This document shows, one piece after another, positions 23,785 through 50,557 of a stretch of DNA of 51,100 nucleotides (position 1 is the first letter of the stretch; each line of letters starts with the position of its first letter). Below the pieces are notes generated by a model. The model was not told the origin of the DNA and did no database searches. It was given only the letters and a program-made list of their open reading frames with translations. The position numbers and the translations under genes are program-made. The DNA is taken from assembly GCA_024398105.1 (NCBI GenBank), contig JAKSJP010000018.1:1-51100 (forward strand), given 5' to 3'. This DNA comes from Bacteroidales bacterium (lineage in GTDB: Bacteria; Bacteroidota; Bacteroidia; Bacteroidales; UBA932).

Positions 23785-25206
23785 ATGCGTCTTTTCAGGT
23801 TTCGTATCTGTAGGATCGTGGTATTCATGGTTCTGCTTTTTTTATACTCTTTCCAGACGCATGCCCAGAGCTACAGAAGCCTTGATGATTATCCATTCAT
23901 AATAATCCTGCGTGCTGAGACACCCCTTGAGGATCTCAACATGACCGATTCCCTTTTCAATTCGATCTCGACTGAGATCCAGTTCGTGGTAAACAAGACT
24001 GATCTCAACTATAAGGCTGATTTCTTCAGACTTTTCGAGAATGAGGTGCTGCCTCTCCTGAAGGACGAGAACGTGTCGATCCAGCAGCTCTTCATCCGCG
24101 GTGCGGCATCTCCAGAAGGTCCGTATCTCAACAACCAGAGACTTGGAAGAGAAAGAACTCAGGTTCTCCTTGATTATATCAGGAAGGCGACATCCAGCGC
24201 CGATGCGGAAAGATCCTTTGAAGTGGCTGCTTCTTCAGTGACAGAAGACTACGCAAGACTTGTGGACCTCATGGAAGAGGCAGGCGACAAGGATGCCAGG
24301 AGAGTACGCGAGCTGTTCGAGTCGTGCGGCTGGGACGAGCTCCAGTGCAAGACTCTTCTCGGTAAGATTGACGGTGGCGCTCTCTGGAACAGGCTTCTCC
24401 ATACTTATTTCCCATGCCTGCGTGCGACAAGAGTCGTGTTCGTGTTCAGAGAGGCAGGCCTTGGCAAGGAACTCGAGAAGGCAGGTCTTCCTCAGGGAGT
24501 CTATGCAGTCACACATTCGGCACCTTCCGGCATCCAGATTCCTGATTTCTCTTCATCAGTCGTCGAGAACGTGACCCCTGACTATAGCAGAAGGCATCTT
24601 CTTGCCGTCAGGACCAATCTCATCAGGGACTTCTTCTATATGCCACGCTTCGGTTTCGCACCGTCGCTTGATGTCCAGCTGGAATACTATCCGCTCGGCG
24701 GCCATTATACTGCAAATGCTTCATTTACATGGAGTAACCATAGACATTGGGACGATCAGAAATTCTTCCAGATCAGGGATGCAAAGCTCGAGCTCAGGCG
24801 ATATTTCAAGGGCGACGGCTCATTCACCGGCCTATACGCCGGAATCTATGGGGAAGGCGCCGTATATGGAATCGGACTCGGACCGGATACCGGTTGGGAA
24901 GGCGAGGCATGGGGCGGCGGCCTTGATCTGGGCTATGTCGTTCCGATCAACAGAAAGGGCAATCTCCGTCTCGAATTCAACGTCTCCGCGGGCTACATAG
25001 GCTCGGTCTACGATCCTTATGTCTATGGCAACCCGGTCACAGGAAGCACGGATGACAGACTCTACTATTATGACTACACTGGCTCGCCAAAGAATTTCGT
25101 CAGAAGGAACAATCTTCTTACATGGTTCGGACCTACGGATCTTGGAGTAAGCCTTACATACGATATCCTTTATAGAAAACCAGTCATGAAAGGAGGTACA
25201 AGATGA
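23785..25206 (+). CDS. DUF3575/OmpA-like outer-membrane protein, first gene of fimbrillin operon
   Basis: A 473-residue exported protein with a hydrophobic signal ending near TFHAQ/THAQ. The middle (about 100-135) holds an OmpA-like peptide, LFIRGAASPEGPYLNNQ, resembling peptidoglycan-binding OmpA C-terminal domains. The last 190 residues match DUF3575: LAVRTNLIRD, PSLDVQLEYYPLGGHY, LRRYFKGDGSFTGLYAGIYGEG, and a beta-barrel-like ending. Genes of this type head fimbrial loci in many Bacteroidales and are thought to be outer-membrane partners of the pilus. Its stop overlaps the start of the DUF5119 gene. The ATG at 23785 is used rather than a TTG at 23779. Name from family recognition; mechanism inferred. 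Confidence 0.82.
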   Translation: MRLFRFRICRIVVFMVLLFLYSFQTHAQSYRSLDDYPFIIILRAETPLEDLNMTDSLFNSISTEIQFVVNKTDLNYKADFFRLFENEVLPLLKDENVSIQQLFIRGAASPEGPYLNNQRLGRERTQVLLDYIRKATSSADAERSFEVAASSVTEDYARLVDLMEEAGDKDARRVRELFESCGWDELQCKTLLGKIDGGALWNRLLHTYFPCLRATRVVFVFREAGLGKELEKAGLPQGVYAVTHSAPSGIQIPDFSSSVVENVTPDYSRRHLLAVRTNLIRDFFYMPRFGFAPSLDVQLEYYPLGGHYTANASFTWSNHRHWDDQKFFQIRDAKLELRRYFKGDGSFTGLYAGIYGEGAVYGIGLGPDTGWEGEAWGGGLDLGYVVPINRKGNLRLEFNVSAGYIGSVYDPYVYGNPVTGSTDDRLYYYDYTGSPKNFVRRNNLLTWFGPTDLGVSLTYDILYRKPVMKGGTR

Positions 25207-26360
25207 AAGCAGTGATCAGAAATATTCTTCTTGCATTGGCGGTTTCGCTTGGCGTCAGTGCTTGCATTGAACCTCCGCTCCATCTTCCTGGAGATGAAGT
25301 TCTTGTGGATATGCCTATGTATCTTACTGACCTTCAGGTCGTATGGGATGTAGACCTCGACTTCGAGAGCGACTGGCACTATGGCTGGGACGAGACCGAC
25401 GTCGAACATTGGGGACCGATCGGATATCCTTATCCGTCCAACTACGAGGTCAGGAGGTACTATCTCGGCAACCAGCGCAAGGATTCCCATGACCAGGTCG
25501 ACGGGTTCACGATCTTCGACACCCAGTTCCGCCGTTACTATAATTTCGGATACTATGATATGCTTGTTTGGAGTAATATTGATTCTGAGGATGGTGCTCA
25601 GGTGCTTGTGGTCGACGAGAAGAACCTCGACGAAGTCAGAGCTACCACTACAGGAACAAAGGGACTTGTAAGTCTCGCGAACCTTGATACCAAGGCTGTG
25701 GCCGCTATCTACAACCAGCCTGAGATATTCTACTCTTCATATATCGAGGACCTCTTTATCTCAAGGAACTTCTCTGACTACGACTACTATGACGAGAAGG
25801 AAGACGTCTGGGTCAAGAAGATCAGCACCACACTTACTCCTCTTGTTTATATATATCTTGTACAGATCATCATCTACAATAATGACGGACGTATCATCGA
25901 TGCCAACGGTGACTGTGCCGTGACCGGTTTCGCTTCTTCGACCAGTGTCAATACGGGACATACAGGAATGTCATCCGGACCTGTCTATTTCCAGAGCCGC
26001 ATGAAGAAGGGGCTTGACGTCAAAGGCCAGAAGGCCGACGTCGTGGGAGGAAAACTGACGACCTTCGGTCTTTGCGACATGGAACCATGGACAGTGACCA
26101 AAGGTCCGGTCTACAAGGGCTCGAGAGCTTCTCTTTCGAACATCCTGTATTTCGACCTGACATTCGTCAACGGCAAGGTCCAGACTCTCTCGGCAGACGT
26201 CACGGAGCAGTGCCAGAGACAGGCCCATGGCGGAATCATCACCATTGAGCTGGATGCCCAGAAGATCAAAGTCCCTGGTGGTGAGGATGATGGATCAGGA
26301 AGCTTGTTCGTCCCTACGGTCGATGACTATGAGGAAGTCGTATGGGACTTTGAGATATAA
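25203..26360 (+). CDS. DUF5119 lipoprotein
   Basis: A 385-residue lipoprotein (signal then VSAC-IEP, C21). The opening of the mature part (LQVVWDVDLDFESDW), the NNDGRI segment and the GGIITIELDAQKIKVP ending fit DUF5119, a family found beside fimbrillins in Bacteroidales; its role may be assembly or anchoring, but this is not established. It overlaps the upstream gene by four bases (ATGA). A perfect Shine-Dalgarno AAAGGAGGT (25189-25197) lies five bases before the start, embedded in the upstream coding sequence. 47 bp separate it from the first fimbrillin. Confidence 0.8.
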   Translation: MKAVIRNILLALAVSLGVSACIEPPLHLPGDEVLVDMPMYLTDLQVVWDVDLDFESDWHYGWDETDVEHWGPIGYPYPSNYEVRRYYLGNQRKDSHDQVDGFTIFDTQFRRYYNFGYYDMLVWSNIDSEDGAQVLVVDEKNLDEVRATTTGTKGLVSLANLDTKAVAAIYNQPEIFYSSYIEDLFISRNFSDYDYYDEKEDVWVKKISTTLTPLVYIYLVQIIIYNNDGRIIDANGDCAVTGFASSTSVNTGHTGMSSGPVYFQSRMKKGLDVKGQKADVVGGKLTTFGLCDMEPWTVTKGPVYKGSRASLSNILYFDLTFVNGKVQTLSADVTEQCQRQAHGGIITIELDAQKIKVPGGEDDGSGSLFVPTVDDYEEVVWDFEI

Positions 26361-26407
26361 CTCCAGATCAGATCTTTCAGTTGTTTAATCTTTCAACAAT
26401 CAATATC

Positions 26408-27709
26408 ATGAAACATTTCGGTTATTTAGTCGCAGCAACACTGGCCTTCGCCAGTTGCTCCAAGACTGAGCTCATCAATGAAAACAAAGGGGTGGACTCA
26501 GTGATCTCTTTCTCGGTAAGTCGTCAGAACGCAACCAAGGTGCAGAAACTCAATGAGACTCAGCATTACAATTTCGGAGTCTTTGCCTACAAGAACACTG
26601 ACGTGGTGAACAACATCATGGAAAACTATCTTGTCGGCTTCATGGACGAGACTGCAAAGAAGGGCTATTATATGACTGACGGAGTCCAGACAACATTCGG
26701 CGATGCCGCAGGTACTGTCGACGGAAAGTCTCTCTGGCAGTATGAGATGCTCGGAAAGACTGAGTATACATATGTAGGCACAGAAGGATACTACACAAAG
26801 GACCAGACCCGGTATATGTCCAATCTTGACAACCAGTATCTCCGTTACTGGGACCTTTCATCCGAGTCTACCTCTTTCTATGCATATGCTCCTTATATCA
26901 ACGGACAGGGCACCGCTACTTTCGACAACTCGACAAAGGTCCTCACTATTCCTGATGGATCTGTAGTCGCTGCGTCAGTCGACGGAAATGACACTCCTGA
27001 GGCTTGTGAGTATATGTACGCTGCTACCAAGGTTTCCAATACAGATTACAAGAAGGACGTCCAGCTCAACTTCAGACGTCTCATCTCCAAGGTGAACATC
27101 AAGTTCTGGGAGGATATCGCAGGCTATGACGTGAAGATCCTTGACCTTACCGCAGACTATGGCGTGTCAGCTGCTCCTTCAGTCAGGACAACCAGCGGCG
27201 ACGATGTGAGCTACTCACAGGGCCAGTATTTCTCCAAGAGCGGCTACGATGTGGACTTTACTGACATCGCAGCACCTGTAGTTTCAGGCAAGACCGGTAC
27301 ATTTACCAGTGCGGCCCTCAACTTCAAGTCTCCTGAGGCTGCTCAGATCGGTACTTCAAGGAATGCCGCATCTGCTTCAGTGACAAGCTACTACGCAATT
27401 CCTAAGAACAATACTACCGGCTTTACCTTCCATGTCTCTTACCTCCTTACCTCAACCACTGGTGAGACTATCAAGGTACAGGATGCAACTGTATTTGTTC
27501 CTGCGGAAAATGCGAACTGGACAGCGAACACCCACTATACCTACATCTTCAAGATCACCAAGGGCAGCTCAGGTACAACCGGCGATCCAGGTACAATCGA
27601 TCCTAACGATCCAAAGGCCGATACAGAGAATGCTCTCTATCCGATCGTCTTCGACAATTGTACAGTCGAGGAGTGGGTTCCTTCAGAGTATGAATATGAA
27701 ATCAATTAA
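26408..27709 (+). CDS. Fimbrillin-family lipoprotein 1 (single domain)
   Basis: A 433-residue lipoprotein (FASC-SKT, C17) of the Mfa_like fimbrillin family. After the lipid anchor comes an acidic linker, SVISFSVSRQ and NATKV with Lys44, 27 residues past the cysteine, the place where related pilins are cut so that a donor strand can be exchanged. The body has the usual YWDLSSESTSFYAYAP and LNFRRLISKVNIKF segments, and the ending HYTYIFKITKG then a Gly/Asp-rich linker and EEWVPSEY. It is a candidate main shaft or base subunit. ATG at 26408 chosen for the signal. Followed by the next gene after 3 bp. Confidence 0.82.
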   Translation: MKHFGYLVAATLAFASCSKTELINENKGVDSVISFSVSRQNATKVQKLNETQHYNFGVFAYKNTDVVNNIMENYLVGFMDETAKKGYYMTDGVQTTFGDAAGTVDGKSLWQYEMLGKTEYTYVGTEGYYTKDQTRYMSNLDNQYLRYWDLSSESTSFYAYAPYINGQGTATFDNSTKVLTIPDGSVVAASVDGNDTPEACEYMYAATKVSNTDYKKDVQLNFRRLISKVNIKFWEDIAGYDVKILDLTADYGVSAAPSVRTTSGDDVSYSQGQYFSKSGYDVDFTDIAAPVVSGKTGTFTSAALNFKSPEAAQIGTSRNAASASVTSYYAIPKNNTTGFTFHVSYLLTSTTGETIKVQDATVFVPAENANWTANTHYTYIFKITKGSSGTTGDPGTIDPNDPKADTENALYPIVFDNCTVEEWVPSEYEYEIN

Positions 27710-27712
27710 TCA

Positions 27713-29000
27713 ATGAACAGCAGATTCATGACATACATGCTGGCAGTGTCTCTTGCCATGGTCGTATCATGTTCCAAGATCGGAACCCGTATCGATGACG
27801 ACCGTTCGACCGAGAGCACGGACCCTATGCGCTTCTCCAGCCCTGATGAGAACCATCAGGCGGAGACCAAGGCGTCGTCGCCGTTGACACAGGGTTTCCT
27901 CGTATCGAGCTGGAAGGCCTTCGGAAAGACCGGCCAGCATGTGGTCATGGATAAGTATGAGGTTCAGTACAGATACGATTCATGGCAGGGCAGCTCGCAT
28001 TGGGGCTATGTCAGCGGCGGTTCTGATACTTTCTATCAGACGCAGTATGAGAGGTATTGGGACTATTCGAACTTTCCGTACCGTTTCTATGCGATCTCTC
28101 CTTGTCCTCCATATTCCGAGATGGGTTCTTTCGTCCTTTCGGACACTGAGCTTGTCCTGCCGGAATCTGTCGTGTTCGAGTCTCAGACATCGGCAGACGG
28201 ACTCGTTTCCGATGCTGCTGAGCCATATATGCCTGCTCAGATACTACGCGACGTGGACGGACATGACTTCGATCTCATCGCAAAGGACCCGAGCGGCGAG
28301 GCAAAGGAAATCAACCATGGTTCGACATTGCTCAACCGTTCGGTCTCACTTCCTTTCCACCATATCACATCAAAGGTGAGGTTCGGATTCTATGTCCAGG
28401 ATTTCGGCGAGGCTGAATCCGGTCCGATCCTTATCCACGACATTGAAGTGAAGGTCGTCTCAGACGGTTTCACGACTTCGGCCAAGGGATATTCTGCAGA
28501 TCTTTCTTCTTCAGATATGCTTGGCGGAGATTTCACTACAAGAACCAAGACAGATTCACATCCGCTCCTGCTTACAGTCCAGGATGACGATGGAACTGCC
28601 AACGATCTCAGGTTCGCCCGCAGCAGAAGCACCGCCTATATGTGCAAGGCTTCTTCGGGTCTCATGCAGATCCCTCAGGACGCTGTCCAGATGAGGGTCT
28701 CATTCAAGGTCTCAGGACAGATGGTCGACACCAAGCTCATCGAGGCCTACTCTGGACAGATACATTACGACAGCACCAGCGACGAGACTGTCTATTCAGA
28801 CCTTCTCATCACGGTCAAGTCTGCTGATGGTCAGAAAACTGATGTCTTCAGCTGGGGAAAGAACACTCTGAACTCCTATTACATAGTCCTGAGCCGTTTC
28901 TACCCGCTTTCAATAGAGTTCACCGCTTCACTTACGTCATGGGAAGACGTCAACGGCGCGCTCGACACTGATCTTGAAAAATAATAATAACTCTTGTATA
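27713..29000 (+). CDS. Fimbrillin-family lipoprotein 2 (single domain)
   Basis: Coding runs from 27713 to the stop at 28984; the 15 bases after it are the gap to the next gene. The 423-residue lipoprotein (VVSC-SKI, C20) has the conserved ETKAS motif with Lys53, 33 residues after the cysteine, then YEVQYRYDSWQG, YWDYSNFPYRFYAISP (the fimbrillin aromatic strand), LPFHHITSKVRFGF and the terminal strand FTASLTSWEDVNG. The domain is single and of normal length. It follows fimbrillin 1 by 3 bp and shares its architecture, so both may be shaft subunits. Fimbrillin membership is clear; position in the fibre is inferred. Confidence 0.8.
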
Positions 29001-31228
29001 TGAAACACAACATTATCCCTTTCCTTGCAATTGGAGCAGCACTTGCTTTCTCCTGCACAAAGGACATCGATCCTATTCCGGACGACCAGAAGACTCCTAT
29101 CGAGTTCTCGGTAAATGGTGATGGTATCACCCAGACCAAGGCCGGCTTCACCGAAGCCGCTACGCGTGTGATCGCTCGTTTCCAGAGCGATGAGAATGGT
29201 ACGACCAACGTCAAGTATGCCAAGGCAGTGCTTACAGCTTCGAAGGATGCTGTCGGTGGTGCTGCCGGATATTCTTCTGTCGACTATGTCTCTTCAGACC
29301 AGAAGAAGTACTGGGACGATGCTTTCGGAAGAAAGGGACAGATCTCAGTCTATGCAGTAGCGATCCCTAACAGCATTGATCAGACAAAGCTTGCTGAGTC
29401 TCTTTTAGCAGGTGGTTCAAGCTGGGCTGCTGAAGCTGCTCCGGACAACACCATCACATGGAGCGTCGCTACTGACCAGTCCGGCAACCCTCTTGCTGCC
29501 GAAGATCTTGTCTACAGCAACAATATCCAGGACGGAGGCTCATACGGACGTTATACATACGATTATACTGCAAACTCATATCCTTCAGCCACAGGTGTAG
29601 CTGCTTCCCATGAGAACGGCAGACTGGTGTTCACACAGGCTCCTGGCGCAGACCCAAGTGATGCAGGTCATTTCGACAAGGGTCACCTTATCTTCAACCA
29701 TTCGCTCTCACGTCTTACAGTTACTCTTGTCGAGGGTGACGGTTTCGATGGCGTAAAGACCAGCGCTGCTGACTTCAATTTCAAGACCGGCACCAATATC
29801 CAGCTCATGGATATGAACACTGCAGGTAAACTTGACCTCAAAGCTGGCTCATGGAGCAACATCAGCAGCTCTGACATCACCAGGATGGCTCCTTCAAGCG
29901 ACCATTTCGGAGCAAACGGTACATATGCCTCACAGATGCTTCCTGACTACAAGTTCTATGAGAACGGTACTGACAATGTGATGCAGTTCGTGATCGATGA
30001 CAATACTTACTATGTGACCCAGAAGCAGGTGTTCGCAGCACTCGAGAGCGAGGCTGCCAATGATGACCTGAAGAAGAGCGACGCTACAGGCAACTACTAT
30101 CAGATGGAGCAGGGCAAGAACTATGTGCTTACCATTACTGTCAAGAAGACCGGTATCGAGAGCCTTTCTGCCACTCTTGCTCCATGGGTCGAGGTCAGCG
30201 GCTCGACATCTGTCAACAATGCGCATCTCTCGTTCTCGATGAGCGCCAGCGGTCAGGCTTGTGACAAGGATATCGACCTCTACAGACTTGCTGATGACAA
30301 TGCAGGTTACGATGCTGACAATTACGATTTCTCATACGAGGGAAAGAACTGGTTCGGCAACTATCTCACCGGCGATGCTTACAAGACCACTCTTCTCCAT
30401 GCTGACCTTGCAGACGGTAAGTGGAGTACACCATGGTACTTCGAGAGCAACAAGACATACTACCATTTCCGTACAGTCAACAAGGGTACAGCAGTGCTTG
30501 CAAATGACGCTGATGCCCCTGACTACTTTGAGATTGCCGGTTCTGCTACGGCTGATCCACATTGGGGAGCTCCGATGAAGCCTAAGGCAGGTGTCGCTTA
30601 TCTCAAGTATGACGAGACAAAGGGCTATGAGGACTTCCTCTATCCAGCAATCGGTGCTACTGAGAGCACGATCGCAATCCAGGAACTCCATATGATGAGC
30701 AACATCAATGTAGTGCTCGAGACCAGCACCGACGACGGTAAGGTCGCATTCGCTGTCGGCGACGACAAGACAATCGTAAAGATCACCAGGATCTCAAAGA
30801 ACGGTACCGTCGAGATGGGACGCGGTGTGGTTGCTGCAGCGACTGGCTCTGCTGACATCGGAGAGCATACAATGGCCACTCCAGCTGATTACTGGGCTAC
30901 CACAAATGTGAAGACCAAGCCTTACACATTCTCGGTAGTTCCTCAGGTACTTGCCAGAGGTACTGATGATGAAGACTATGTAGGTATCTTCATCCAGACT
31001 CCTGACAGCAACCAGTACTATGTAGTGAAGGCTCTCAGCGACATCACAGCTGACACTGTAAGCGACCAGAGGAACCAGACCAAGGACGCCAAGATCCAGC
31101 GCTGGTATCCGGGCCACAGCTATACCTACACCATCAAGGTCACCAAGACCGGTATCCAGGCTATCACTGCTACAGTAGCAGACTGGGTGACAGTCTCAGG
31201 AAGCACAGACATCAATCTTGAGGATTAA
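29000..31228 (+). CDS. Fimbrillin-family lipoprotein 3 (two tandem domains)
   Basis: A 742-residue lipoprotein (FSC-TKD, C19) with Lys47 in QTKAG. It contains two successive fimbrillin-like domains. Domain 1 (about 45-400) ends with a YVLTITVKKTGIESLSATL strand and a Trp signature (W396 in APWVEVSG); domain 2 (about 400-742) ends with YTYTIKVTKTGIQAITATV and W729 in ADWVTVSG, a clear internal copy. Domain 2 also has YYHFRTV and PHWGAPMK segments shared with the next genes. An earlier in-frame TTG at 28994 is not needed. Two-domain fimbrillins could span two positions along the fibre or form a stalk. Gap to the next gene is 2 bp. Confidence 0.82.
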   Translation: MKHNIIPFLAIGAALAFSCTKDIDPIPDDQKTPIEFSVNGDGITQTKAGFTEAATRVIARFQSDENGTTNVKYAKAVLTASKDAVGGAAGYSSVDYVSSDQKKYWDDAFGRKGQISVYAVAIPNSIDQTKLAESLLAGGSSWAAEAAPDNTITWSVATDQSGNPLAAEDLVYSNNIQDGGSYGRYTYDYTANSYPSATGVAASHENGRLVFTQAPGADPSDAGHFDKGHLIFNHSLSRLTVTLVEGDGFDGVKTSAADFNFKTGTNIQLMDMNTAGKLDLKAGSWSNISSSDITRMAPSSDHFGANGTYASQMLPDYKFYENGTDNVMQFVIDDNTYYVTQKQVFAALESEAANDDLKKSDATGNYYQMEQGKNYVLTITVKKTGIESLSATLAPWVEVSGSTSVNNAHLSFSMSASGQACDKDIDLYRLADDNAGYDADNYDFSYEGKNWFGNYLTGDAYKTTLLHADLADGKWSTPWYFESNKTYYHFRTVNKGTAVLANDADAPDYFEIAGSATADPHWGAPMKPKAGVAYLKYDETKGYEDFLYPAIGATESTIAIQELHMMSNINVVLETSTDDGKVAFAVGDDKTIVKITRISKNGTVEMGRGVVAAATGSADIGEHTMATPADYWATTNVKTKPYTFSVVPQVLARGTDDEDYVGIFIQTPDSNQYYVVKALSDITADTVSDQRNQTKDAKIQRWYPGHSYTYTIKVTKTGIQAITATVADWVTVSGSTDINLED

Positions 31229-31230
31229 TC

Positions 31231-33378
31231 ATGAAGTTTCATTCCATTAGAATAGCTTTGGCTTCGTTGATGGCATTGTCAGTCATCAGCTGCAAGGAAG
31301 ACGAGCCGTACGGACAGTCCGACAGGTCACCTGTCGAGCTGTCTGCAGGCTATGCTTCTGACGGCATGATGACAAAGGCGACTGTTACCGATGGAAGCGG
31401 AAAGACTGTGCGCGCATTCACGGGCGATACGCGTCTGTTCTTTATGATGGTTGCTGAGGACGAGACTGTGTCTCCGACTCAGTCCATGATCGGATATAAC
31501 TATGCAAAGGCAGCTGCCGCAGGCTCTGAGGATGCGAAGTCGGACGTCGCTTTCGACGGAAACTACCTCTACTGGGATGATGCGTATGCCCGTGATACAA
31601 AGATCTCAGTATATTCTGTGGCAGCGGCAGGAGCAGAGCTTGACAGTGCTGTGTTCGGTCCGGAAGCGACAGCTCAGACCGTAGGCACTTCAGCCAAGGT
31701 CATCAACTTCTCGTCTGCATCGAACACTCCTGTGGTTTCATGGGAAATCGGCGAGGGAAGTGCTCAGGACAGTTCTTCTTTCAGCCAGGACGACCTTGTC
31801 TTCAGCAACAATATCGTCAAGGTCGACGATTCTCATGACTACAGACTCAGGTATCGTGAGACAGCTGGCGGCCACCATAAGTTCGACAAGGGAGAACTGA
31901 CATACTACCATGCTCTCTCACGTGTCACGGTCAGGATCGTCTGCGGCGACGGTTTCAAGGGAGACGGAACAGACTTCAGTTTCACATCAGTCCCTACAGG
32001 CGCCGACAACAGCTTTGCTGTCAACGGCTTCTATGGAAAGGGTACGTTCGATGTCGCTGAAGGCGAGTTCACACCTGGTTCTGTCGAGGTGAAGGACTTC
32101 TCAAGCATCTGTCTCAGCAGGACCGATGCCCAGAAGGTAGATCCTTACTATACTCTTGAGGCATATCTCGTCCCAGGTACTGATATCGAGAACGGTACTG
32201 TTGAGAATGCATTTACATTCGAGATCGACAACAACAGGTACGACATCTCGATGAAAGAACTGCACGACCTGCTCGAGACTGTGGATGAGTTCCTCGCTGG
32301 AGTCCATTACCAGTTCACTTTCATTGTCTCCAAGACCAAGGTCAGCGGTTTCAGCGCAAAGGTGGTCGACTGGGAGGACGTGACTGCCGATGAGCATAAG
32401 CCTAGCAACGCAAGGATTTCTCTTTCTCTCGAGGACAGGGGAGCGTCAGTGACTTCAGGCGTCGATTTCTATCGTTCGCTGGATCCAGGCAATACATCCG
32501 GTATATTTGATACATACCAGGGTTACCTCTGGAGCACTGGCTATGAGAAGAAGAGTTCTGACTGGTTCTGGCCAGGAAATACGTCTTTCTATCATTTCCG
32601 CGCCGTCGGTGATAAGTCGGATTCTTCTGCTCCGTCTGTCGTCAGCAATGAAGGAGGCGATTACTTCGGAATCTCTGCAGGTGAGACTTACCATGATTAT
32701 ATCTGGGGAGCGCCTTTCAAGGAGATGGACGGCTCGGCGGATGCCCCGGACGATGCGAAGTTCGTATACTCGAATACTCTTGGTTTCGACGGTACCGCAG
32801 CGCATCAGATCAGCTATGCGATCGGACCTACCAAGGATGTCATCAGACTTTTGATGATGCATGTGATGAGCAATGTGACATTCGAACTTGTGACATCCTC
32901 TGACGATGCGGCTGTCTCTTTCGGCGACGGTACCCCAGGCAACATCACGACCATTACTTTGGAGCAGATCCATAAGTCCGGCAAGGTCAATATGGGAAAC
33001 GGCCTGGTCCAGACTACGGATTCGAGGTCTGACTATGAGTTCACGACAGTCCATGCACAGGTCGGCAACAAGATCACATGGTCTGACTATGGTGCTGTGC
33101 CACAGTCGCTTGAAGATGTAGTGCTTGTCATCAAGACCGCGGACAACAACCTCTATACTGTTGATATGGAGAATGTCATGGCTTCGTCAGTGTCGACAAA
33201 GAACATCGTGAATCCTTATGAGCAGGTATCCGGTAAGTACAGGATCGACCGCTGGTATCCTGACTATAATTACAAATATACATTCAAGCTCACCAAGAAG
33301 GGTGCAGAAAGCCTTGAAGCGACCATCCTCGACTGGGAAGATGTGGTTGCCGGTGACGATAATGTACAAATCAAATAG
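31231..33378 (+). CDS. Fimbrillin-family lipoprotein 4 (two tandem domains)
   Basis: A 715-residue lipoprotein (VISC-KED, C21; Lys49 in MTKAT). It has the same two-domain layout as its upstream neighbour: domain 1 ends at VVDWEDVT (W381), domain 2 at ILDWEDVV (W702). Shared details such as YWDDAYARDTKISVYSVAA in domain 1 (compare YWDDAFGRKGQISVYAVA in fimbrillin 3) and FYHFRAV with YIWGAPFKE in domain 2 show that fimbrillins 3 and 4 are tandem paralogs. Surface-exposed fibre component by inference. Confidence 0.82.
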   Translation: MKFHSIRIALASLMALSVISCKEDEPYGQSDRSPVELSAGYASDGMMTKATVTDGSGKTVRAFTGDTRLFFMMVAEDETVSPTQSMIGYNYAKAAAAGSEDAKSDVAFDGNYLYWDDAYARDTKISVYSVAAAGAELDSAVFGPEATAQTVGTSAKVINFSSASNTPVVSWEIGEGSAQDSSSFSQDDLVFSNNIVKVDDSHDYRLRYRETAGGHHKFDKGELTYYHALSRVTVRIVCGDGFKGDGTDFSFTSVPTGADNSFAVNGFYGKGTFDVAEGEFTPGSVEVKDFSSICLSRTDAQKVDPYYTLEAYLVPGTDIENGTVENAFTFEIDNNRYDISMKELHDLLETVDEFLAGVHYQFTFIVSKTKVSGFSAKVVDWEDVTADEHKPSNARISLSLEDRGASVTSGVDFYRSLDPGNTSGIFDTYQGYLWSTGYEKKSSDWFWPGNTSFYHFRAVGDKSDSSAPSVVSNEGGDYFGISAGETYHDYIWGAPFKEMDGSADAPDDAKFVYSNTLGFDGTAAHQISYAIGPTKDVIRLLMMHVMSNVTFELVTSSDDAAVSFGDGTPGNITTITLEQIHKSGKVNMGNGLVQTTDSRSDYEFTTVHAQVGNKITWSDYGAVPQSLEDVVLVIKTADNNLYTVDMENVMASSVSTKNIVNPYEQVSGKYRIDRWYPDYNYKYTFKLTKKGAESLEATILDWEDVVAGDDNVQIK

Positions 33379-33381
33379 CAG

Positions 33382-39384: not shown

Positions 39385-39396
39385 CTGTAGAAAGAT

Positions 39397-42408: not shown

Positions 42409-42409
42409 T

Positions 42410-44386
42410 ATGAAAAGAACAGACAGATATATACTGGCCGCCTTGGCCGCTGTCGCATTGGTCTCATGCTCAAGGATCAGTGATGAACAGCCTGTCGACC
42501 AGGGCGATGTAATCAATGTCGGAGGAATCTCTTCCGGCAGCCCTCTGACAGGCAGCGTTGTGACCAAGTCCGGCGAGAGGACTGACGCAGAGAAGATCGA
42601 CTGGCTGCTTCCTTCACTCGTCAAAGGTCTTGACATCACTTATGGAAAGGAAGGTGTCACGATGTCGGAGAGAGTTGCCATACTTTCGCTCAGGACAGAT
42701 GCTGAGGGCCAGCCTGAGAGAGTGATCGACGGAGAGAATGACTACGCTGTGTATACCTTCAATTACAGGGAGGACGACGGTACTGCGACTCTTCCTGCAA
42801 GATGGGTCGGTAACGGTGACCATTATTTCAAAGGAGTGCATGTCTCTGACAGGATCAGGTTCGCTTCTGATCCGTCCGAGCTCAAGCAGGACAGGACGGT
42901 GAACAACGTCCAGGTCGATGGAATAATGGATTTCACCACTGATCAGAGCAATGCTGCTGAATCCATGGATCAGAATGCCCTAGGAAACTATACTCTACTT
43001 TCACATTACCTTGCGATGCCTGCCAATACAGTCATCTCTGCTACGGTGGCAAGGATCAGGCTCCCGTTCAGCCATCGTCTCTCAAGGGTAGTCGCATACA
43101 TACTCATCGATCCGGACCTCCATGCCAGGATCAAGGGATACAAGAAGGACGGAGCTGGAAATGACATCGATGTCGAAGACCCTGTGAACAGTGCGATAAA
43201 GTTCTGCAATGTCGATGTCCTTGCAGGTGTACGCGACGAGATCGACCCTCAGACGGGTCTCCATACTCTTACACCAAGTTGGGCTCAGTCAGTCAGGAAA
43301 GTGATTCCTCACTATGTCGGAGAGCAGGATGAAGTAGTCGTCTATGAGAATGAGAACGGCTTCGTGTATGAAGGAAGCAGCTCTTTTGATTCTGTCGAGC
43401 AGCTATATGCCAGCAGAGGTGAAACAAGCGGTTACAGGCGTGTCGTCTATCAGGCCGTCCCTGTATATGATGCCATCGTACGTCCTACATATACTTCTCC
43501 TTCGATGGTGATGTATGATGAAGTAGGCTTTGCACGTGAGTCGGTCGCGTCAAGGAAGAACCAGATAGACTTCGAGGTGAGTCTTGACAACGGCCTTACA
43601 TACGACAAGCATTTCGAGTTCGACCTTGATGCGAACTATGAGACCAAGGTCTATCTCAGGATTACTGCGGAGGGTGTGGACTACAATGAGTCCGGTACCC
43701 AGCTCTGGTCGGAGAACAGCGTCACTGACGGGTTCTACGGAGTGAACAACCAGAACGGGAACACTCTGTCTCTCGCAGGCAGCAGCTGGCAGAGAGCATT
43801 CAGGAATACAAGCGTAGCAGATGACAAGGTGACCGACGGACATAGGTATGATACTGACGACGAGGACCTTGCACAGTATGTAAGCACTTCCGACTGGATC
43901 GAGGCTTTCCTTGAGGCATACGAAGGCGGATCACACCACGGAGACTATTTCATTCTCGAAGAGGACATCACCATCGATTCGTCACTTCTGCCCGCAGACT
44001 TCGTCTTCACTGGCCATCTGGACGGCTTCGGACGCAAGGACAGAAGATATCACTCGATCACTCTGACCGGTGGTGGATCACTCTTCTCCGGTCTTGACGG
44101 AATCTACACGACACGTCAGGAAGAAGAGGAGGCGCTTGGAAATCCGATCTATGGAGCAGGTTGGAAATGGGAAGCCAACGTGCATAAGGAAAGGAATACA
44201 TGGGTGCCTTACAAGGATCCTGTCACAGGTACGGGCTGGAGGGCCGAGGTGCTTGACCTGAAAGTCATAGGCGCCGACATGTTCTCTCCTGGTGCTGTCG
44301 TCACAGGTAACGTGCAGAACTGCAAGGACGGAGTTGATGGCACACATGCAGTCAGCGACCATATCCCAGCTCTTCCAAAGTATTAA
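42410..44386 (+). CDS. Fimbrillin-family lipoprotein 9
   Basis: A 658-residue lipoprotein (LVSC-SRI, C20; Lys53 in VTKSG). The fimbrillin part includes AVYTFNYREDD, LPFSHRLSRVVAYI and YETKVYLRITAEG. The C-terminal 130 residues (from about 525) contain a GHLDGFGRKDRRYHSI segment like the first strand of GLUG/beta-helix repeats, but the region is short and looks like a reduced form of that in its neighbours. The ATG at 42410 is one base after the preceding stop; an ATG at 42392 lies inside the previous gene. Confidence 0.75.
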   Translation: MKRTDRYILAALAAVALVSCSRISDEQPVDQGDVINVGGISSGSPLTGSVVTKSGERTDAEKIDWLLPSLVKGLDITYGKEGVTMSERVAILSLRTDAEGQPERVIDGENDYAVYTFNYREDDGTATLPARWVGNGDHYFKGVHVSDRIRFASDPSELKQDRTVNNVQVDGIMDFTTDQSNAAESMDQNALGNYTLLSHYLAMPANTVISATVARIRLPFSHRLSRVVAYILIDPDLHARIKGYKKDGAGNDIDVEDPVNSAIKFCNVDVLAGVRDEIDPQTGLHTLTPSWAQSVRKVIPHYVGEQDEVVVYENENGFVYEGSSSFDSVEQLYASRGETSGYRRVVYQAVPVYDAIVRPTYTSPSMVMYDEVGFARESVASRKNQIDFEVSLDNGLTYDKHFEFDLDANYETKVYLRITAEGVDYNESGTQLWSENSVTDGFYGVNNQNGNTLSLAGSSWQRAFRNTSVADDKVTDGHRYDTDDEDLAQYVSTSDWIEAFLEAYEGGSHHGDYFILEEDITIDSSLLPADFVFTGHLDGFGRKDRRYHSITLTGGGSLFSGLDGIYTTRQEEEEALGNPIYGAGWKWEANVHKERNTWVPYKDPVTGTGWRAEVLDLKVIGADMFSPGAVVTGNVQNCKDGVDGTHAVSDHIPALPKY

Positions 44387-44398
44387 TTGACAATCGAC

Positions 44399-47149
44399 AT
44401 GAATAAGTTTTCAGGATACATACTTCTTTCAGCAGCTCTCTTCCTCGCATCATGTACGATAGAGGAACCGGTGAGAGATATCATGAGCCCGGGCCAGATG
44501 GACCTGATCGGCACGGCCGTCAATTTCAACGTGTCCGTCGTGGAAGAGTTCCATACAAAGGGATATACCAGCAATGACAACGGTGAATTCAATGAGGAGG
44601 ACCGAATGAGGATTTACCGTAACTACTGGGATGATGATACCAGGAACTGGTCTTCAGTCGAGACTTACAGGACTTATTACCGTAAGGCCGACCGCGTCGC
44701 GGAGATCATCCTTCTTGGCAATGACTGGCTTCCGGAACCGGGCAGGCAAGGCATGGACTACGATGAGTCGACCGGTACCTACAGGACTTTCGTACAGACT
44801 GCAGCCGACTCTCTCACATGGGACAACGGAAAGACCCTTCGTTTCAGGGCGTGGAGCCAGAGCAACTACCACAATGTCCTCAAAGGTTCCACCAGGACTT
44901 ATTTCTATCCTGATTTCTGCATCTCTGACTATGTCACGGCTTCCGGACCTACACTGGGCATTCCGCTTGTGCTCAAGCATATGGGCAGTCGTATCAAGTT
45001 CACCTCGAGGACCAGCGGAAATGAAGTGTCGACTGCCGTGATCAGTACAGACTGGAACGACTACAAGTATCTGGACAATTCAGATATCGCAGAGAATGAC
45101 GCTTCTTCAACTGAAGCAGGAAAGACTGACGAGCAGGCGCAGGCTGAGTGTGCACTCGTTACAGAGATATATAACAAGATGTGCATGCCTGCGGGCGTGG
45201 ACCTGAGCAGAAGCATGCTCCGCGGATTCTTGAATGACAGGTGGAACAGCCTTTCCGATACTCAGGTGAGGAATCTTGAGACCCTGGATTCAGACTGGTT
45301 CTACAATTATGGCTCATTGTCCGCTGAAGAGATCGCTTCCAGCGTGAAGCGTCCTTTCTTCAGCAATGTGAATGGTTCATGCTATATGATCACCATCCCT
45401 TATGACATGAGCAATGACGCGATGACCCAGGGTGAGGTGCTCGTGCTTCCACCATGCACGAGGTTCAGGGTCTATATGAGGGATATAACCGGAGGCGATG
45501 CATTCGGCGTCGGCTCATACGAGGGCAGATATCATATCTTCAGCCTCTCGGACATCTATGAGAGAGACTCGAGCGGAAACATCATCAGGGACGCTGAAGG
45601 CAATCCTGTGCAGATGTTCCCTGAGGGCCTCAAGCTCAAGGCCGGCTCAAGCTATACCTTCAGGGTGGGCTACAAGTATGACGGAGCCTATATCATTGCT
45701 GACAAGGATCTTTCATGGGAGGATGAAGACCTTGGTGACATCGATGCGGATGACCAGGGCCAGGCCGTTCCTGTACCTGCCGCTTCTGACTATCAGTGGT
45801 GGAAGCAGGCCATCAGCGACGCTATTCCTGTCGGAACCGAAGATTTCCGTCCTGTCTTCCATATCAGCAACGAGCATGAATTCATCGAGTTCACAAATCT
45901 TGTCAATGGTACCGCGACTACTGCAGTCTCAGGTCTCTACCGCCTTGTCAAGACCTATAGGAACACCGTCGTAGGCGGTCAGACAGTGACTGTCCCTGAT
46001 ACTTACGGATGGTCTACAAAGAACAGCCAGTACGAACCTGAATGGATCGAGGAAAGCGAGGCTGAGGCGCTCGGATATATCTTCTATGACCATTATTTCG
46101 CAGCCAATGCGGACAGGGCCGCTTACTCTGAGCGTGACTACCTCAAGGGACCATATCCTTTCTTTGACGACAATCTGAGAAGATGCTTCACTGTGGTTCT
46201 CGACGCGGATCTCGACATGAAGGACTGGAGCCTTGAGACCGTCGGCAACTCGGTCGGCAATCCGTTCATGGGAAACTTCGACGGTGGCCTTCATACGATA
46301 AGGAACATCAATCTCAAGGACGAGTATCTTTTCGGCTATGTCAACGGAAAGGGTGACGGCGGTGCCTCAATCACCAATCTCAGGATCGAGTCTCTCCATA
46401 GGACCGCGCTTCTCAACCAGGGTGTCAATCCGATCTACATAGCTGGAATTGCACTGTACGCAGAGAGTACAGCCAACAGCATCGCGGCGTCTCTTACCAT
46501 GGACGAGGGCGTCAACGGAACTTCCTATGTCGTCGGTTGCATACATGTAGGCGATGCGGGCGGAGCCTTGGTAGGAAGGTCAGACCATCTGAACATGTTC
46601 GGATGCATGCAGGCTTCAGCAGGCCTTTCAGCGGCATCAGGTGCGCTTCTCGGAGCATATGCCGATCCGTCAGACAGGTTCTTCGCTCCTCAGATAAGCC
46701 TTGCGGCGCAGCGTGCTTCGCATAATTTCAGTGCCAAGCCTGAGTTCATCAATTTCATGTGCAACTACTACGACAGGGATCTTTCCTCAGCGGCTACTGC
46801 GGTCGGCTCTGTCGCAGACGACTATTCGCTCCTGGAATATATCCGCGGAAGCAAGAGCGAGATCCTCAGGGCAAAGAACGACTATCTTACCGAAAAGGTG
46901 CCGATGGATGTGCTCCTGAGCAGAAGTGATGCCGACACATATTACGGACTTGCTCCATGGCATGCGATGAACTACGCGATCTATAGGTACAATGCTTCTC
47001 TTGGAGCAGACCATCCTTGCAACGCTCATTTCGAGGCCAGCACAACCGGCTACGATAACAGATACCCGACACTCATGAAGACCGATCCTCTGACTGTCTA
47101 CGGTACTTCTGAACTGAACAAGTGGAACCCGCTCAAGCAGCCTAACTGA
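44399..47149 (+). CDS. Fimbrillin-like giant lipoprotein 10 with GLUG-like region
   Basis: A 916-residue lipoprotein (LASC-TIE, C19; Lys54 in HTKGY). The fimbrillin domain ends near W440 (DLSWEDEDL), preceded by SYTFRVGYKYDG. From about 480 on, an EFIEFTNLVNG segment, VVLDADLDMKDW and MGNFDGGLHTIRNINL fit the start of a GLUG-type beta-helix, followed by GYVNGKGDGGASI and several Gly-rich turns. These regions are typical of large Bacteroidales adhesins. Start at 44399 chosen for the signal. Likely another tip or side adhesin. Confidence 0.75.
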   Translation: MNKFSGYILLSAALFLASCTIEEPVRDIMSPGQMDLIGTAVNFNVSVVEEFHTKGYTSNDNGEFNEEDRMRIYRNYWDDDTRNWSSVETYRTYYRKADRVAEIILLGNDWLPEPGRQGMDYDESTGTYRTFVQTAADSLTWDNGKTLRFRAWSQSNYHNVLKGSTRTYFYPDFCISDYVTASGPTLGIPLVLKHMGSRIKFTSRTSGNEVSTAVISTDWNDYKYLDNSDIAENDASSTEAGKTDEQAQAECALVTEIYNKMCMPAGVDLSRSMLRGFLNDRWNSLSDTQVRNLETLDSDWFYNYGSLSAEEIASSVKRPFFSNVNGSCYMITIPYDMSNDAMTQGEVLVLPPCTRFRVYMRDITGGDAFGVGSYEGRYHIFSLSDIYERDSSGNIIRDAEGNPVQMFPEGLKLKAGSSYTFRVGYKYDGAYIIADKDLSWEDEDLGDIDADDQGQAVPVPAASDYQWWKQAISDAIPVGTEDFRPVFHISNEHEFIEFTNLVNGTATTAVSGLYRLVKTYRNTVVGGQTVTVPDTYGWSTKNSQYEPEWIEESEAEALGYIFYDHYFAANADRAAYSERDYLKGPYPFFDDNLRRCFTVVLDADLDMKDWSLETVGNSVGNPFMGNFDGGLHTIRNINLKDEYLFGYVNGKGDGGASITNLRIESLHRTALLNQGVNPIYIAGIALYAESTANSIAASLTMDEGVNGTSYVVGCIHVGDAGGALVGRSDHLNMFGCMQASAGLSAASGALLGAYADPSDRFFAPQISLAAQRASHNFSAKPEFINFMCNYYDRDLSSAATAVGSVADDYSLLEYIRGSKSEILRAKNDYLTEKVPMDVLLSRSDADTYYGLAPWHAMNYAIYRYNASLGADHPCNAHFEASTTGYDNRYPTLMKTDPLTVYGTSELNKWNPLKQPN

Positions 47150-47162
47150 TAATCTGAAGCAT

Positions 47163-48248
47163 ATGAGTCACATCAATATATCGAAACTTACATCATTTGC
47201 AGGTGCTCTCGTGCTTGCTTTCTCGGCCATCACATCATGTGCTGAGAAGATTGAGACTCCTTCTTTCAATCCGTCAACTGTGAGGATCTCTGCGTCTCTC
47301 GAAGGCTTTGAGGACGATATGAAGACAAAGGTCAATGACGATCTCGACGGATTCACAGCCAATGACAGGATCAGGCTTATGATCATCTGTCCGCATTCGA
47401 CCAGCCATGAACTCGGTGAGACATGGGGATCGTACTATACGACATCCTTGAAGGCCGACACGAACGGGGAGTGGTATCTCGACAACAGCGGACTTACGGT
47501 CGGATCATATGAGGCTCAGAAGACTACTTATATCTACAGCGCAGTCTACAGCCCGATGACCAGGAATTTCGTATACAACAATTACAGATACAGCCGTCCA
47601 AGCATCTGTTTCCATGCCGACCAGCGCAAGATCGCGGACTATAAGTCGAGCGACCTTATCTGGGCTCAGTCCGTCATGCAGACAGGAGCTGTCAGCGTCC
47701 ATATGAATTTCAGACACAAGATGGCCAGGCTTGACATCAAAGTCGACGATTCGGCCCTTGATGAAGCTTTCTCGGATTCTGCCATCCTTACTCTGGAGAA
47801 CATGCCGGACATCGATGGGGCAGAGGTCGTGGTCGGAGATTACTACGCAGATGAGAGTTATTCTTCCGATACATGGAACCGTTTCAATTACAGGGAGATG
47901 GCTTCATGCAGCTACGAGAACAACGGCAAGGTGATAGGCATACAGGTGATTGATGACGCAGCTGGAAGGACCAAGGTCTATGGTATGAGCGGAAACCCTT
48001 CTCCTGCGGGAGGAAACTGGAACTCTCAGTACTTCGGAAGTGTTCCCGACACCGGAACCTACACTGCATATCAGGATCCTTCGGACCCTAGGCATTATAT
48101 GCTTCTCGTACCGCCTTGCGTGCTTTCAGATGATGCACCGGCTGTGTTCTGGCTCAGGGATGGATCAAGACGATACAGCGTAACTCTTGATCAGAAGTCC
48201 TTCACAGAAGGTCATAGCTATCATGTAAACCTCAGATTTACCAACTAA
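47163..48248 (+). CDS. Fimbrillin-family lipoprotein 11 (short)
   Basis: A 361-residue lipoprotein (ITSC-AEK, C26) and the smallest fimbrillin of the operon. The maturation-type motif is MKTKV (Lys56, 30 residues after the cysteine). It keeps the MNFRHKMARLDIKVDD strand and a late LVPPCVLS stretch, but lacks the terminal Trp signature, ending instead in HSYHVNLRFTN. The lack of the last strand is reminiscent of subunits that end or anchor a fibre, though I cannot show this. Stop overlaps the next start by one base. Confidence 0.72.
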   Translation: MSHINISKLTSFAGALVLAFSAITSCAEKIETPSFNPSTVRISASLEGFEDDMKTKVNDDLDGFTANDRIRLMIICPHSTSHELGETWGSYYTTSLKADTNGEWYLDNSGLTVGSYEAQKTTYIYSAVYSPMTRNFVYNNYRYSRPSICFHADQRKIADYKSSDLIWAQSVMQTGAVSVHMNFRHKMARLDIKVDDSALDEAFSDSAILTLENMPDIDGAEVVVGDYYADESYSSDTWNRFNYREMASCSYENNGKVIGIQVIDDAAGRTKVYGMSGNPSPAGGNWNSQYFGSVPDTGTYTAYQDPSDPRHYMLLVPPCVLSDDAPAVFWLRDGSRRYSVTLDQKSFTEGHSYHVNLRFTN

Positions 48249-50557
48249 TGAAAGTTACCATGAAAAGATATCTTATATGTTTCGCGGCCCTTGCTGCTGC
48301 GGTTTCATGCAACGACAGGATAGGAGGAGAATATCCTGCAGACTGCGACCCTGTCGAGATGGTCGGAATCGAGGCTGAAGTCGGAACGGATCCTGTCACC
48401 AAGGCGACTGCGCTGGACAAGAACAATCCTGTCGGCCGTTACAAGACATTCGTGGACGGCGACCAGATGGTCCTGAATGTAATCAAGAGAACTGAGAACG
48501 CTATCAATGCTTTCAGTTACTCGGACATTGTCTATAACCATGAACTCGGTGGCTGGACAAGGGACATGGACAGAGGCAGCACCGGTGTCAGCACGGATGC
48601 GCCTGAGAAGATCTACTGGAGCGATGCGGCAGGCAAGCATACCTTTATCGGATACAGCGTTCCGCAACAGGCTGCCGGTCAGGTGTTTGACTGGAACAAC
48701 AAGACTGTGTTCGAAGACGTGGCAGGTGGTGTTGATACATACTATGGCTCTATCGGAGATCCGCTGGACGAGGGTGACATAGACCACACTACAGGAGAGA
48801 AGATCATCTATGACGACCTGCTTCTGACCCATGACCTGGAGAAGGTCGCAGAACCTGGCGGTTCAGTAGCCCTCGTGACATTCCGCCACGCTCTTGCGGA
48901 CGTCAGGGTGATAGTGAACATAGTCGGCTTCTCGGCAAGCAGCGATGCGGCTGATACCCAGACCAAGGTCGAATCGATGCTGCTTAAGGATATGCTTACG
49001 ATGTACAAGTGGCGTCAGCAGAGCAGCGCCGCGCAGAGCCTTGAACCTAGATATGACCAGGCCAGCCTTGATGAGATCTATGGTGACGGTGCAGTCGGAT
49101 ATGACCAGAGAAAGAATGTCAGGATGTGGATACCTGAACCGGAGGGACATGGTGTCGGTGTGGGCAAGACCTTTACTTTCCACGCGCTCGCGGTTCCGTC
49201 CAAGGAACAGGATCTTCAGATCAGTTTCAATGTGAAGTATCCTGATCCTATGAAACCAAGCCAGATGATCGATAAGTCATACACAGCGGTCCTTCCTGGT
49301 ACAGTGGAATTCAGGGCAGGGCATTGTACGACCATAAACATCAATCTCAACCACAGCAACGAGCTGATGACTGTCGGTGCGGAGTATCTTGACTGGCAGT
49401 TCGCGGAGAATCCGGACGAAGGTGAGCTCAGAAAGAATTCTACTTTCCTTCAGACCGTATCCCGTTCTTCAGTGACTACTTCCAATGACGCTGAAGCCAC
49501 TGAAGAGGACGCGACGTGGCTATATGTAGCAGCCGGAGGTGCTGTCAAGGATATCTACGGAAACGTCGGTACCAAGGAGAAGCCATACACCATCTGTACT
49601 GCGGATCAGCTTCTTTCCTTTGCCTATGAGGTCAAGGAAGGCAGGGATTTCAAGGGCCAGTATGTCAAGCTTGACGCGAATATCACAATGCAGCCTACGC
49701 CGTCTACGACTGACGGCGGCACTATCGACTGGATAGAGATAGGCGAGGAGGGAAGGCCTTTCGAGGGATACTTCGATGCAGGAGTCCGTCTGATCACTTG
49801 CCTCAAGGGTGGCTCATTCTTCCATACGATCGGAGAATTCGCCCACATAGAGCAGCTTGTCATTGACTCATCGTCCGGTACGATTACTTCCACCGGCGGC
49901 TTCGCGCAAGTCAATAAGGGCATCATCTGCGCAGGTAAGTTCCAGGGAACCATCGACTGTCCTCTGGCAGGCACGGACAAGTATGTCGGAGGCTTCGTAG
50001 GGGAGAACCGTGGAGTCATCATGGCAAGTTATCATCTGGGCACGATCAATGCCGGATGTAACGTAGGTGGCATCGCCGGCTACAATGTAGGCGAAATCAT
50101 CGCAAGCTATACCGCAGGTGACCAGACAGCAGGAACAGGCTGCAACAACGGTGGTATCACCGGCCATCAGGTAGTCCAGGGTTCTCAGGAATGGATTGAA
50201 AACGAGGGCAACCGTTCTGTGTTCGGATCGAAAGTGGACATGTGCTTCTACGACAGGACCATCCTCACTCCGAACTATGACGATGGCGAGGAATCAATCG
50301 GCCTTACCACGAATGAGATGCAGAAATATACTTTCGTGGGACCTAGACCTAGTGAAGTCCAGTCAATTACAGAATATACTGACGATGACCTCTTCGTCAA
50401 TTCGCTTAACTACTCACTCTACAAGTGGCTCAACAGCGAAGATAACAAGAGGATCATCAGGGAAGCTATGGGTGACGAAATAGGCGCAATGGCGGAAGTC
50501 CATTTCATCAACCGCTATTACGCCTATCAGCCTGCAAATTATCCGTGGGCTTACTAG
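48248..50557 (+). CDS. Fimbrillin-like lipoprotein 12 with GLUG repeats
   Basis: A 769-residue lipoprotein (AVSC-NDR, C21; Lys52 in VTKAT), last gene of the operon. I start it at the ATG at 48248, which overlaps the preceding stop (TAATG); an ATG at 48260 is equally possible. The fimbrillin domain includes LVTFRHALADVRVIV and ends at W383 (YLDWQFAEN). From about 430 the ICTADQLLSFAYEV segment starts a beta-helix domain with textbook GLUG repeats: GGFVGENRGVIMASYHLG (near 580) and GGIAGYNVGEIIASYTAG (near 605). Two bases separate its stop from that of the convergent small gene. Confidence 0.8.
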   Translation: MKVTMKRYLICFAALAAAVSCNDRIGGEYPADCDPVEMVGIEAEVGTDPVTKATALDKNNPVGRYKTFVDGDQMVLNVIKRTENAINAFSYSDIVYNHELGGWTRDMDRGSTGVSTDAPEKIYWSDAAGKHTFIGYSVPQQAAGQVFDWNNKTVFEDVAGGVDTYYGSIGDPLDEGDIDHTTGEKIIYDDLLLTHDLEKVAEPGGSVALVTFRHALADVRVIVNIVGFSASSDAADTQTKVESMLLKDMLTMYKWRQQSSAAQSLEPRYDQASLDEIYGDGAVGYDQRKNVRMWIPEPEGHGVGVGKTFTFHALAVPSKEQDLQISFNVKYPDPMKPSQMIDKSYTAVLPGTVEFRAGHCTTININLNHSNELMTVGAEYLDWQFAENPDEGELRKNSTFLQTVSRSSVTTSNDAEATEEDATWLYVAAGGAVKDIYGNVGTKEKPYTICTADQLLSFAYEVKEGRDFKGQYVKLDANITMQPTPSTTDGGTIDWIEIGEEGRPFEGYFDAGVRLITCLKGGSFFHTIGEFAHIEQLVIDSSSGTITSTGGFAQVNKGIICAGKFQGTIDCPLAGTDKYVGGFVGENRGVIMASYHLGTINAGCNVGGIAGYNVGEIIASYTAGDQTAGTGCNNGGITGHQVVQGSQEWIENEGNRSVFGSKVDMCFYDRTILTPNYDDGEESIGLTTNEMQKYTFVGPRPSEVQSITEYTDDDLFVNSLNYSLYKWLNSEDNKRIIREAMGDEIGAMAEVHFINRYYAYQPANYPWAY

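Follow-up and report, generated by a model that had tools for sequence, protein, structure and literature searches.

Type V pili have been described with a tip, a stalk and an anchor, and the sections of a 2025 review drawn on here (PMC12632263) assign the cutting of subunits to a surface clostripain and note that tips often bear a C-terminal ligand domain. For Porphyromonas gingivalis, the cited portions of one study (PMC5789003) place an Arg or Lys on the loop past the first strand of the shaft protein and a Trp at the start of its flexible tail, the last residues of which are needed for polymerization; in the same account, the anchor is uncut, the tip protein Mfa4 lacks a flexible tail, and ~105 residues follow the Trp of Mfa3. 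Here we describe a run of 14 genes (g1–g14) on contig JAKSJP010000018.1 of a Bacteroidales bacterium (draft genome, 2.43 Mb). The stretch analyzed, hereafter the window, is this entire contig (C10; 51,100 bp); beyond g14 it extends for another 543 bp. We propose, with a probability of about 0.6, that the locus encodes a type V pilus built from many distinct pilin-like lipoproteins, each with its own place, and bearing a tip complex of many adhesins.

The locus shares with the Mfa1 and FimA pili of P. gingivalis (mfa1–5, fimA–E), as covered in the cited portions of PMC5789003, lipoprotein precursors, a basic site, a Trp-led tail, a candidate uncut anchor and putative tip proteins that lack a flexible tail. 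However, P. gingivalis has five subunits, one of which is repeated as the shaft, whereas here twelve distinct genes are of the subunit type and four of these encode tandem pilins. Unlike in P. gingivalis, the head of the run consists of DUF3575 and DUF5119 genes, and none of the window genes can be placed clearly in the Mfa2 anchor family. The type V pili of gut Bacteroides, insofar as the cited review sections describe them (PMC12632263), resemble the predicted pilus of this locus in the three roles, clostripain processing and a tip with a C-terminal ligand domain, but they have three structural pilins, whereas here many conserved subunits would share those roles. Smaller DUF3575–DUF5119–fimbrillin loci within the genus of the source organism share the g1 head and, in several cases, g2, followed by lipoproteins with a Thr-Lys or Thr-Arg (T-K/R) pair and by large late genes. 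Each of 12 such loci, some cut by contig ends, has one to nine recognized T-K/R lipoproteins versus twelve here, and g12 has no match in 150 other genomes of the genus. The largest are L030, with nine T-K lipoproteins past the DUF3575 gene, and L028, with eight in two blocks (by a looser motif). No such operon is named in the titles or abstract openings of the openly licensed literature surveyed. If there are indeed about twelve distinct subunit types, type V pili would be comparable to elaborate heteropolymeric fibers.

Conservation and organization of the gene run

Protein searches (E ≤ 0.001) returned at least 619 relatives of g8 and at least 255 of g12, the window's own included. Among the 120 matches listed for each of these genes, most cover at least 95% of the query, at 40–59% identity. 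A g12 profile scan of named genomes gave 48 loci, 30 of which have titles naming Prevotellaceae or a member genus, and many g12-carrying loci come, by title, from rumen or horse feces. Xylanibacter ruminicola, X. brevis, Segatella baroniae and Prevotella communis are cultured carriers. Since relatives occur in cultured Prevotellaceae, the operon is testable, and a conserved operon with about twelve distinct subunit types would make it possible to ask by direct experiment what sets the order of subunits without a known usher.

Best hits in the 48 loci fall in the order g5/g6, g7, g8 and so on to g14, with g10–g14 complete in 36 and the other 12 mostly cut by contig ends. The g2 gene was found in 17 of the 18 of these genomes searched, at 42–62% identity, and 17 upstream halves begin g1-g2-g3-g4 (one without g3), 16 of them continuing into the tandem pilins. 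In every stretch with at least three assigned genes (61 of 61), gene order is non-decreasing and on one strand; these stretches represent 44 of the 48 loci and all 17 upstream loci (65 loci, about 42 genomes). Intergenic gaps are ≤100 bp in 350 of 371 cases, and median identity to the window is 36–53% per gene. All fourteen types are present in five of the 17 loci; ten lack one to three types, mostly one tandem pilin, and two are incomplete. Two of the 17 have an extra g3, and L093 contains four further unassigned frames. Because this gene order is kept elsewhere, the run is, judging by sequence, a conserved multi-gene system rather than a local expansion or a one-off giant. Extra large genes of 925 and 1416 aa lie between g7 and g8 in L085 and L094, from two horse metagenome-assembled genomes (MAGs).

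In the window, 14 open frames lie on the same strand at 23785–50557. The junctions from g1 to g14 measure −4, 47, 3, 9, 2, 3, 12, 15, 12, −17, 0, 13 and −1 bp. The g2–g3 gap of 47 bp shrinks to 20 bp if g3 starts at TTG 26381, and the −17 bp junction of g10 and g11 would be about +1 with the second ATG of g11 as its start codon, giving two or three overlapping junctions. A pattern scan of the whole window for the Bacteroidales promoter TTTG-N16-21-TANNTTTG found five copies, against 0.18 expected, and zero within the gene run. Bacteroidales promoters normally have a spacer of 19–21; that of the copy nearest the operon, at 16, is short. Inside the run, scans for E. coli-type promoters (20 versus 13.8 ± 4.1; 11 versus 12.2) and terminators (10 versus 9.2; 10 versus 7.7) were near chance. 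The 14 genes probably form one operon.

These results agree with the initial annotation in its 14 co-oriented genes with gaps of 47 bp or less, its single promoter, and its DUF3575 and DUF5119 genes at the head, both of which have Pfam matches over cut-off. Overlaps of 1–4 bp, also described there, hold for the −4 and −1 junctions, but one overlap is possibly 17 bp. The same 14-gene order does recur in other genomes as far as order itself is concerned, the full complement being present in five of the 17 loci mentioned above.

Predicted folds and subunit signatures

Nine of the twelve proteins g3–g14 pass the cut-off for Mfa_like_1 (g3, g5, g6, g7, g8, g9, g10, g13 and g14), and g4 is related to fimbrillins at 96.3% by profile comparison; g11 and g12 have no Pfam match of any kind. 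The source genome has 14 Mfa_like_1 matches, 13 of which fall in the gene run and one on C6. In the predicted model of g8, both halves match Bacteroidales pilin structures, including Mfa2, Mfa3, Mfa4 and FimA. The N-terminal part of the g12 model likewise matches Bacteroidales pilin structures, and its C-terminal part is a β-helix; the pilin assignment of g12 is by predicted fold only, as profiles give none. Local alignments identify g5–g8 as recognizable paralogs (22–28% identity). Searching the PDB with a g8 profile returned three Bacteroides adhesion proteins, whereas PDB sequence searches with g8, g14 and g1 as single sequences, and with a g1 profile, gave no match. None of the 10 of 14 proteins run against NCBIfam exceeded a cut-off.

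At the head of the run, the DUF3575 part of g1 is what we take to be an outer-membrane barrel. The N-terminal half of g1 contains a conserved motif, GAASPEG...N..L...R, which presumably resembles OmpA-like domains, a relation for which Pfam gave no match. The g2 protein matches DUF5119, not the FimB/Mfa2 anchor family PF08842, whose sole match in the window is the second half of g7 (22.5 bits versus 21.2).

All twelve of g3–g14 have a recognized lipobox Cys in the window, followed 26–39 residues later by a T-K pair. Ortholog sets, the window included, were compiled from best hits that scored 80 bits or more and reached no less than 75% of the length of the gene in the window; this length filter drops many shorter g9 orthologs, of which 12 were kept, and the motif counts leave out 14 of 323 proteins with no recognized lipobox. 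A [TS][KR] pair lies 10–55 residues past the lipid Cys in 293 of 309 orthologs of g3–g14 and 1 of 18 of g2, compared to 26 of 64 background lipoprotein-like frames, a set defined by a stricter lipobox rule and including some fimbrial-type proteins. For a strict T[KR] at 24–41, the corresponding counts are 258 of 309, 0 of 18 and 12 of 64. A Trp is found 8–24 residues from the C-terminal end in 109 of 110 orthologs of g4–g9, 30 of 194 of g10–g14, and 0 of 18 of g2. Of 19 g3 orthologs, 16 have Trp, Tyr or Phe at the tail position, by a pattern fitted after the ends had been inspected. Based on these motif and tail counts, g4–g9 can be classed as putative stalk-type proteins, g3 probably belongs with them, and g10–g14 appear to be of the tip type. 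Because its orthologs have the cleavage motif in only 1 of 18 cases, g2 is likely the anchor type (candidate). Among the putative tip-type proteins, an extra C-terminal domain is a β-helix in the g12 model, GLUG-type in g10, and a part related to that β-helix in g14.

The C11 (clostripain) family is represented in 13 of 13 genomes tested, and in the source genome at C23:137186-138307. The presumed cleavage residue is Lys at all twelve sites in the window; in 30 other loci, counted where five or more sites were available, Lys stands at 25 of 243. Within a genome these residues tend to be alike (0 of 10000 shuffles); most other loci are all or nearly all Arg, and L057 has Lys at eight of nine sites. 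Fimbrillin loci of the source's own genus show 44 Lys and 7 Arg, in a tally that takes in at least one g2-type protein. The choice of residue may reflect which of the two the processing protease of each host prefers. Alternatively, Lys may have been inherited rather than driven by the host, because the closest relative, in horse-feces MAG Horse54, has Lys as well at the three sites visible.

The tail of g8 is highly patterned. Counting from its Trp (W), positions +5, +7, +9, +11 and +13 are G, G, A, L and W in 32 of 32 sequences; at +6, +8, +10 and +12 the commonest residue reaches 44–69%, and at +14 97%. This alternation resembles that of a strand buried on one face. In the AlphaFold2 monomer, the tail is unplaced, with a block pLDDT (predicted local distance difference test) below 40, as would be expected if the receiving groove sits on another molecule. 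The inner linker of g8 has the same register as the donor tail: V in 94% at W+3, A in 97% at +5, G in 75% at +7, G in 91% at +9, I in 91% at +11 and F in 100% at +13. Its block pLDDT of 40–54 is not confident. Given the shared register, the tail of the first pilin appears to continue without a break into the first strand of the second, forming a pre-joined pair; the match between tail and linker yields a concrete structural prediction.

Features of the pilus locus, with positions in the window and the basis of each assignment
Feature	Position	Strand	Basis
Candidate promoter TTTG-N16-TANNTTTG	23696..23723	+	Nearest match to operon, 5' of g1
g1, secreted protein with C-terminal DUF3575	23785..25206	+	Pfam 50.7 bits, cut-off 21.1
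g2, DUF5119 lipoprotein, candidate anchor	25203..26360	+	Pfam 27.1 bits, cut-off 27; cleavage-site motif absent
g3, fimbrillin lipoprotein, T-K site	26408..27709	+	Mfa_like_1 over cut-off
g4, fimbrillin-like lipoprotein, T-K site, Trp-led tail	27713..28984	+	Pfam 20.9 versus cut-off 27; profile
g5, tandem double fimbrillin, T-K site, Trp-led tail	28994..31228	+	Pfam, profile
g6, tandem double fimbrillin, T-K site, Trp-led tail	31231..33378	+	Pfam, profile
g7, tandem double fimbrillin, T-K site, Trp-led tail	33382..35484	+	Pfam, profile
g8, tandem double fimbrillin, donor-type tail	35497..37470	+	Pfam; predicted model with two pilin folds
g9, fimbrillin lipoprotein, T-K site, Trp-led tail	37486..39384	+	Pfam, motifs
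g10, N-terminal fimbrillin and GLUG-type C-terminal part, tail-less, putative tip type	39397..42408	+	Pfam, motif
g11, lipoprotein with T-K site, tail-less, putative tip type by position and motif only	42392..44386	+	No family match
g12, predicted N-terminal fimbrillin fold and C-terminal β-helix, tail-less, putative tip type	44387..47149	+	Predicted model
g13, single fimbrillin ending without tail, putative Mfa4-like tip type	47163..48248	+	Pfam, motif
g14, N-terminal fimbrillin and C-terminal part akin to the g12 β-helix, putative tip type	48248..50557	+	Pfam, profile

Proposed assembly and alternatives

For the pilus of this locus, we infer cleavage, polymerization and an order of subunits as follows. 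Proteins g3–g14 would be lipidated and carried to the surface. A clostripain-type protease would cut them at T-K (mostly T-R elsewhere), freeing the groove of the first strand, which the Trp-led tail of another subunit would fill. Remaining lipidated, g2 would anchor the fiber beside the barrel protein g1, at the outer-membrane base. The stalk would consist of g3–g9, each subunit at a fixed place, because gene order is conserved and tails differ more by gene than by species, and g5–g8 would each supply two pilins joined in one chain. Having no tail to donate, g10–g14 would form an adhesive tip complex with β-helical adhesins, like Mfa3–5 in Porphyromonas. Adhesion to plant fiber or mucosa in herbivore guts would be a plausible role. 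A more rigid version, in which the pilus has one copy or a set number of each of the twelve subunits, a tail-specific order mirroring the genes, tandem pre-joined pairs, a g1–g2 pair serving as the assembly platform so far missing for type V pili, and a five-protein adhesive tip, is conceivable, and we put it forward only tentatively.

Several observations weigh against the proposed assembly. Five tail-less subunits would fit poorly into one linear, single-tip chain unless joined as a complex, and the tail Trp is present in only 3 of 19 g3 orthologs. By profile g11 is unrelated to pilins, the values for it and the N-terminal part of g12 being 1.7% and 1.1% against the first half of g8. Nor does g2 have a profile or PDB relation to Mfa2 or any pilin, a PDB search with its profile giving two weak matches (best E 0.13), and its anchor role is assigned from position and the missing motif only. 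The linker of g5–g7 resembles the tail at the start only (V at W+3), its later register being different, and among g5–g8 the pre-joined pair appears best supported for g8. Finally, orthologs among the similar g5–g8 were assigned by best hits only.

Set against this evidence, the twelve fimbrillin-like lipoproteins of the initial annotation are borne out by a lipobox in all twelve, Pfam in nine, profile comparison for g4 and the model of g12, leaving g11 aside. Structure prediction, for the proteins modeled, matched both halves of g8 and the N-terminal part of g12 to pilin structures. The broader description, an unusually large surface fiber from a single operon and with distinct subunits for shaft, stalk and tip, is favored in part by fold, motif and role signatures, but the system is not local, g11 is not recognizable as a fimbrillin and g12 is so only by its predicted model, and, as five of the twelve products lack a donor tail, a single linear fiber with one tip is not the sole reading.

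The tail-less proteins could instead belong to several short fibers on a common anchor, any of g10–g14 capping a chain, so that the population displays a mix of adhesins. Five types rarely having a Trp near the end (30 of 194), each ending a chain grown by C-terminal tails, are what such a mix would contain. However, g10–g14 stand together in 36 of 48 loci, the rest being mostly contig-end cuts, and mere alternatives would not need that. In Porphyromonas, moreover, the cited portions of PMC5789003 describe Mfa3–5 as interdependent, so that loss of one leaves the fiber without the other two as well. We regard short fibers as unlikely. It is more doubtful still that the products are separate lipid-anchored adhesins with a pilin fold that do not polymerize. 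They are all lipoproteins by motif, and g11 is not recognizable as a pilin, but the conserved cleavage motif would free them from lipid, and without a partner there would be no role for the g8 tail, which is conserved and alternating and which the monomer model leaves unplaced. The reading we give least credence, and disfavor, is local expansion of redundant pilins, for instance as a store of surface variants. The paralogy of g5–g8 (22–28% identity) and their varying number between genomes are in keeping with it, yet each position has its own ortholog (median 36–53% identity) in the same order, whereas in a store of variants one would expect positions to be shuffled.

Distribution, flanking genes and contig origin

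At E 1e-20, g12 was found in one of 151 genomes of the genus, one of 299 of the family and one of 393 of the order, in each case the source genome itself; these samples overlap, and that of the order is without the Prevotellaceae carriers and therefore under-represents them. The closest operon is that of Horse54 (69% identity for g13, 70% for g14 and 73% for the best segment of g12), which groups with Minthosoma by rpoB. A different version, with g12 at 42% identity, is present in a horse MAG (L051) that falls within the genus by rpoB. Because g12 was found in no other of 298 sampled family genomes and its closest version (L031) lies in a Minthosoma-like genome, these data suggest horizontal spread among gut Bacteroidales. 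An rpoB match was obtained in 25 of 28 genomes; the source genome gave none, so its kinship follows the assigned label, and the branch of L057 is uninformative (wrong frame, 22.8% identity). As to plasmid carriage, g12 had no match in 72,556 plasmid records. The g12 frame at L031:48-2804 is in two pieces of 220 and 687 aa, reflecting an assembly error or a true break.

A permease-family gene (18664-19968) and an HMGL-like gene (22028-22981) adjoin the operon. Both are 78–90% identical in Horse54, Horse100, Minthosoma equi and Horse49, the last of which groups with the genus by rpoB. In the same-genus genomes sampled, they are at 24–39%, often over short parts, or have no match. Mean composition correlation of the flank is 0.67 with the source genome (17 stretches), 0.37 with Horse54 (6), 0.50 with Minthosoma (4), 0.57 with Horse49 (5) and 0.48 with genus mates (9); the operon gives 0.57, 0.41, 0.37, 0.49 and 0.48. 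GC content is 52 and 51% in the window versus 42–46.5% in Horse54 and Minthosoma. By composition correlation and GC, the contig is unlikely to have been misbinned from Horse54 or Minthosoma; it may have been misbinned from an unsampled organism.

The source genome has three further DUF3575 genes (on C46, C17 and C48; loci L006–L008), and a Pfam scan of these three contigs gave no Mfa_like_1 match. Inverted repeats upstream of the operon, at 23166-23463, do not flank the promoter, and hence phase switching by an invertible promoter is unsupported. Also 5' of the promoter are two tandem arrays, one of four copies of a 29–30 bp unit (23008-23129) and one of three copies of a 27–28 bp unit (23322-23408), and a 21-nt inverted repeat occupies 23171-23191 and 23302-23322.

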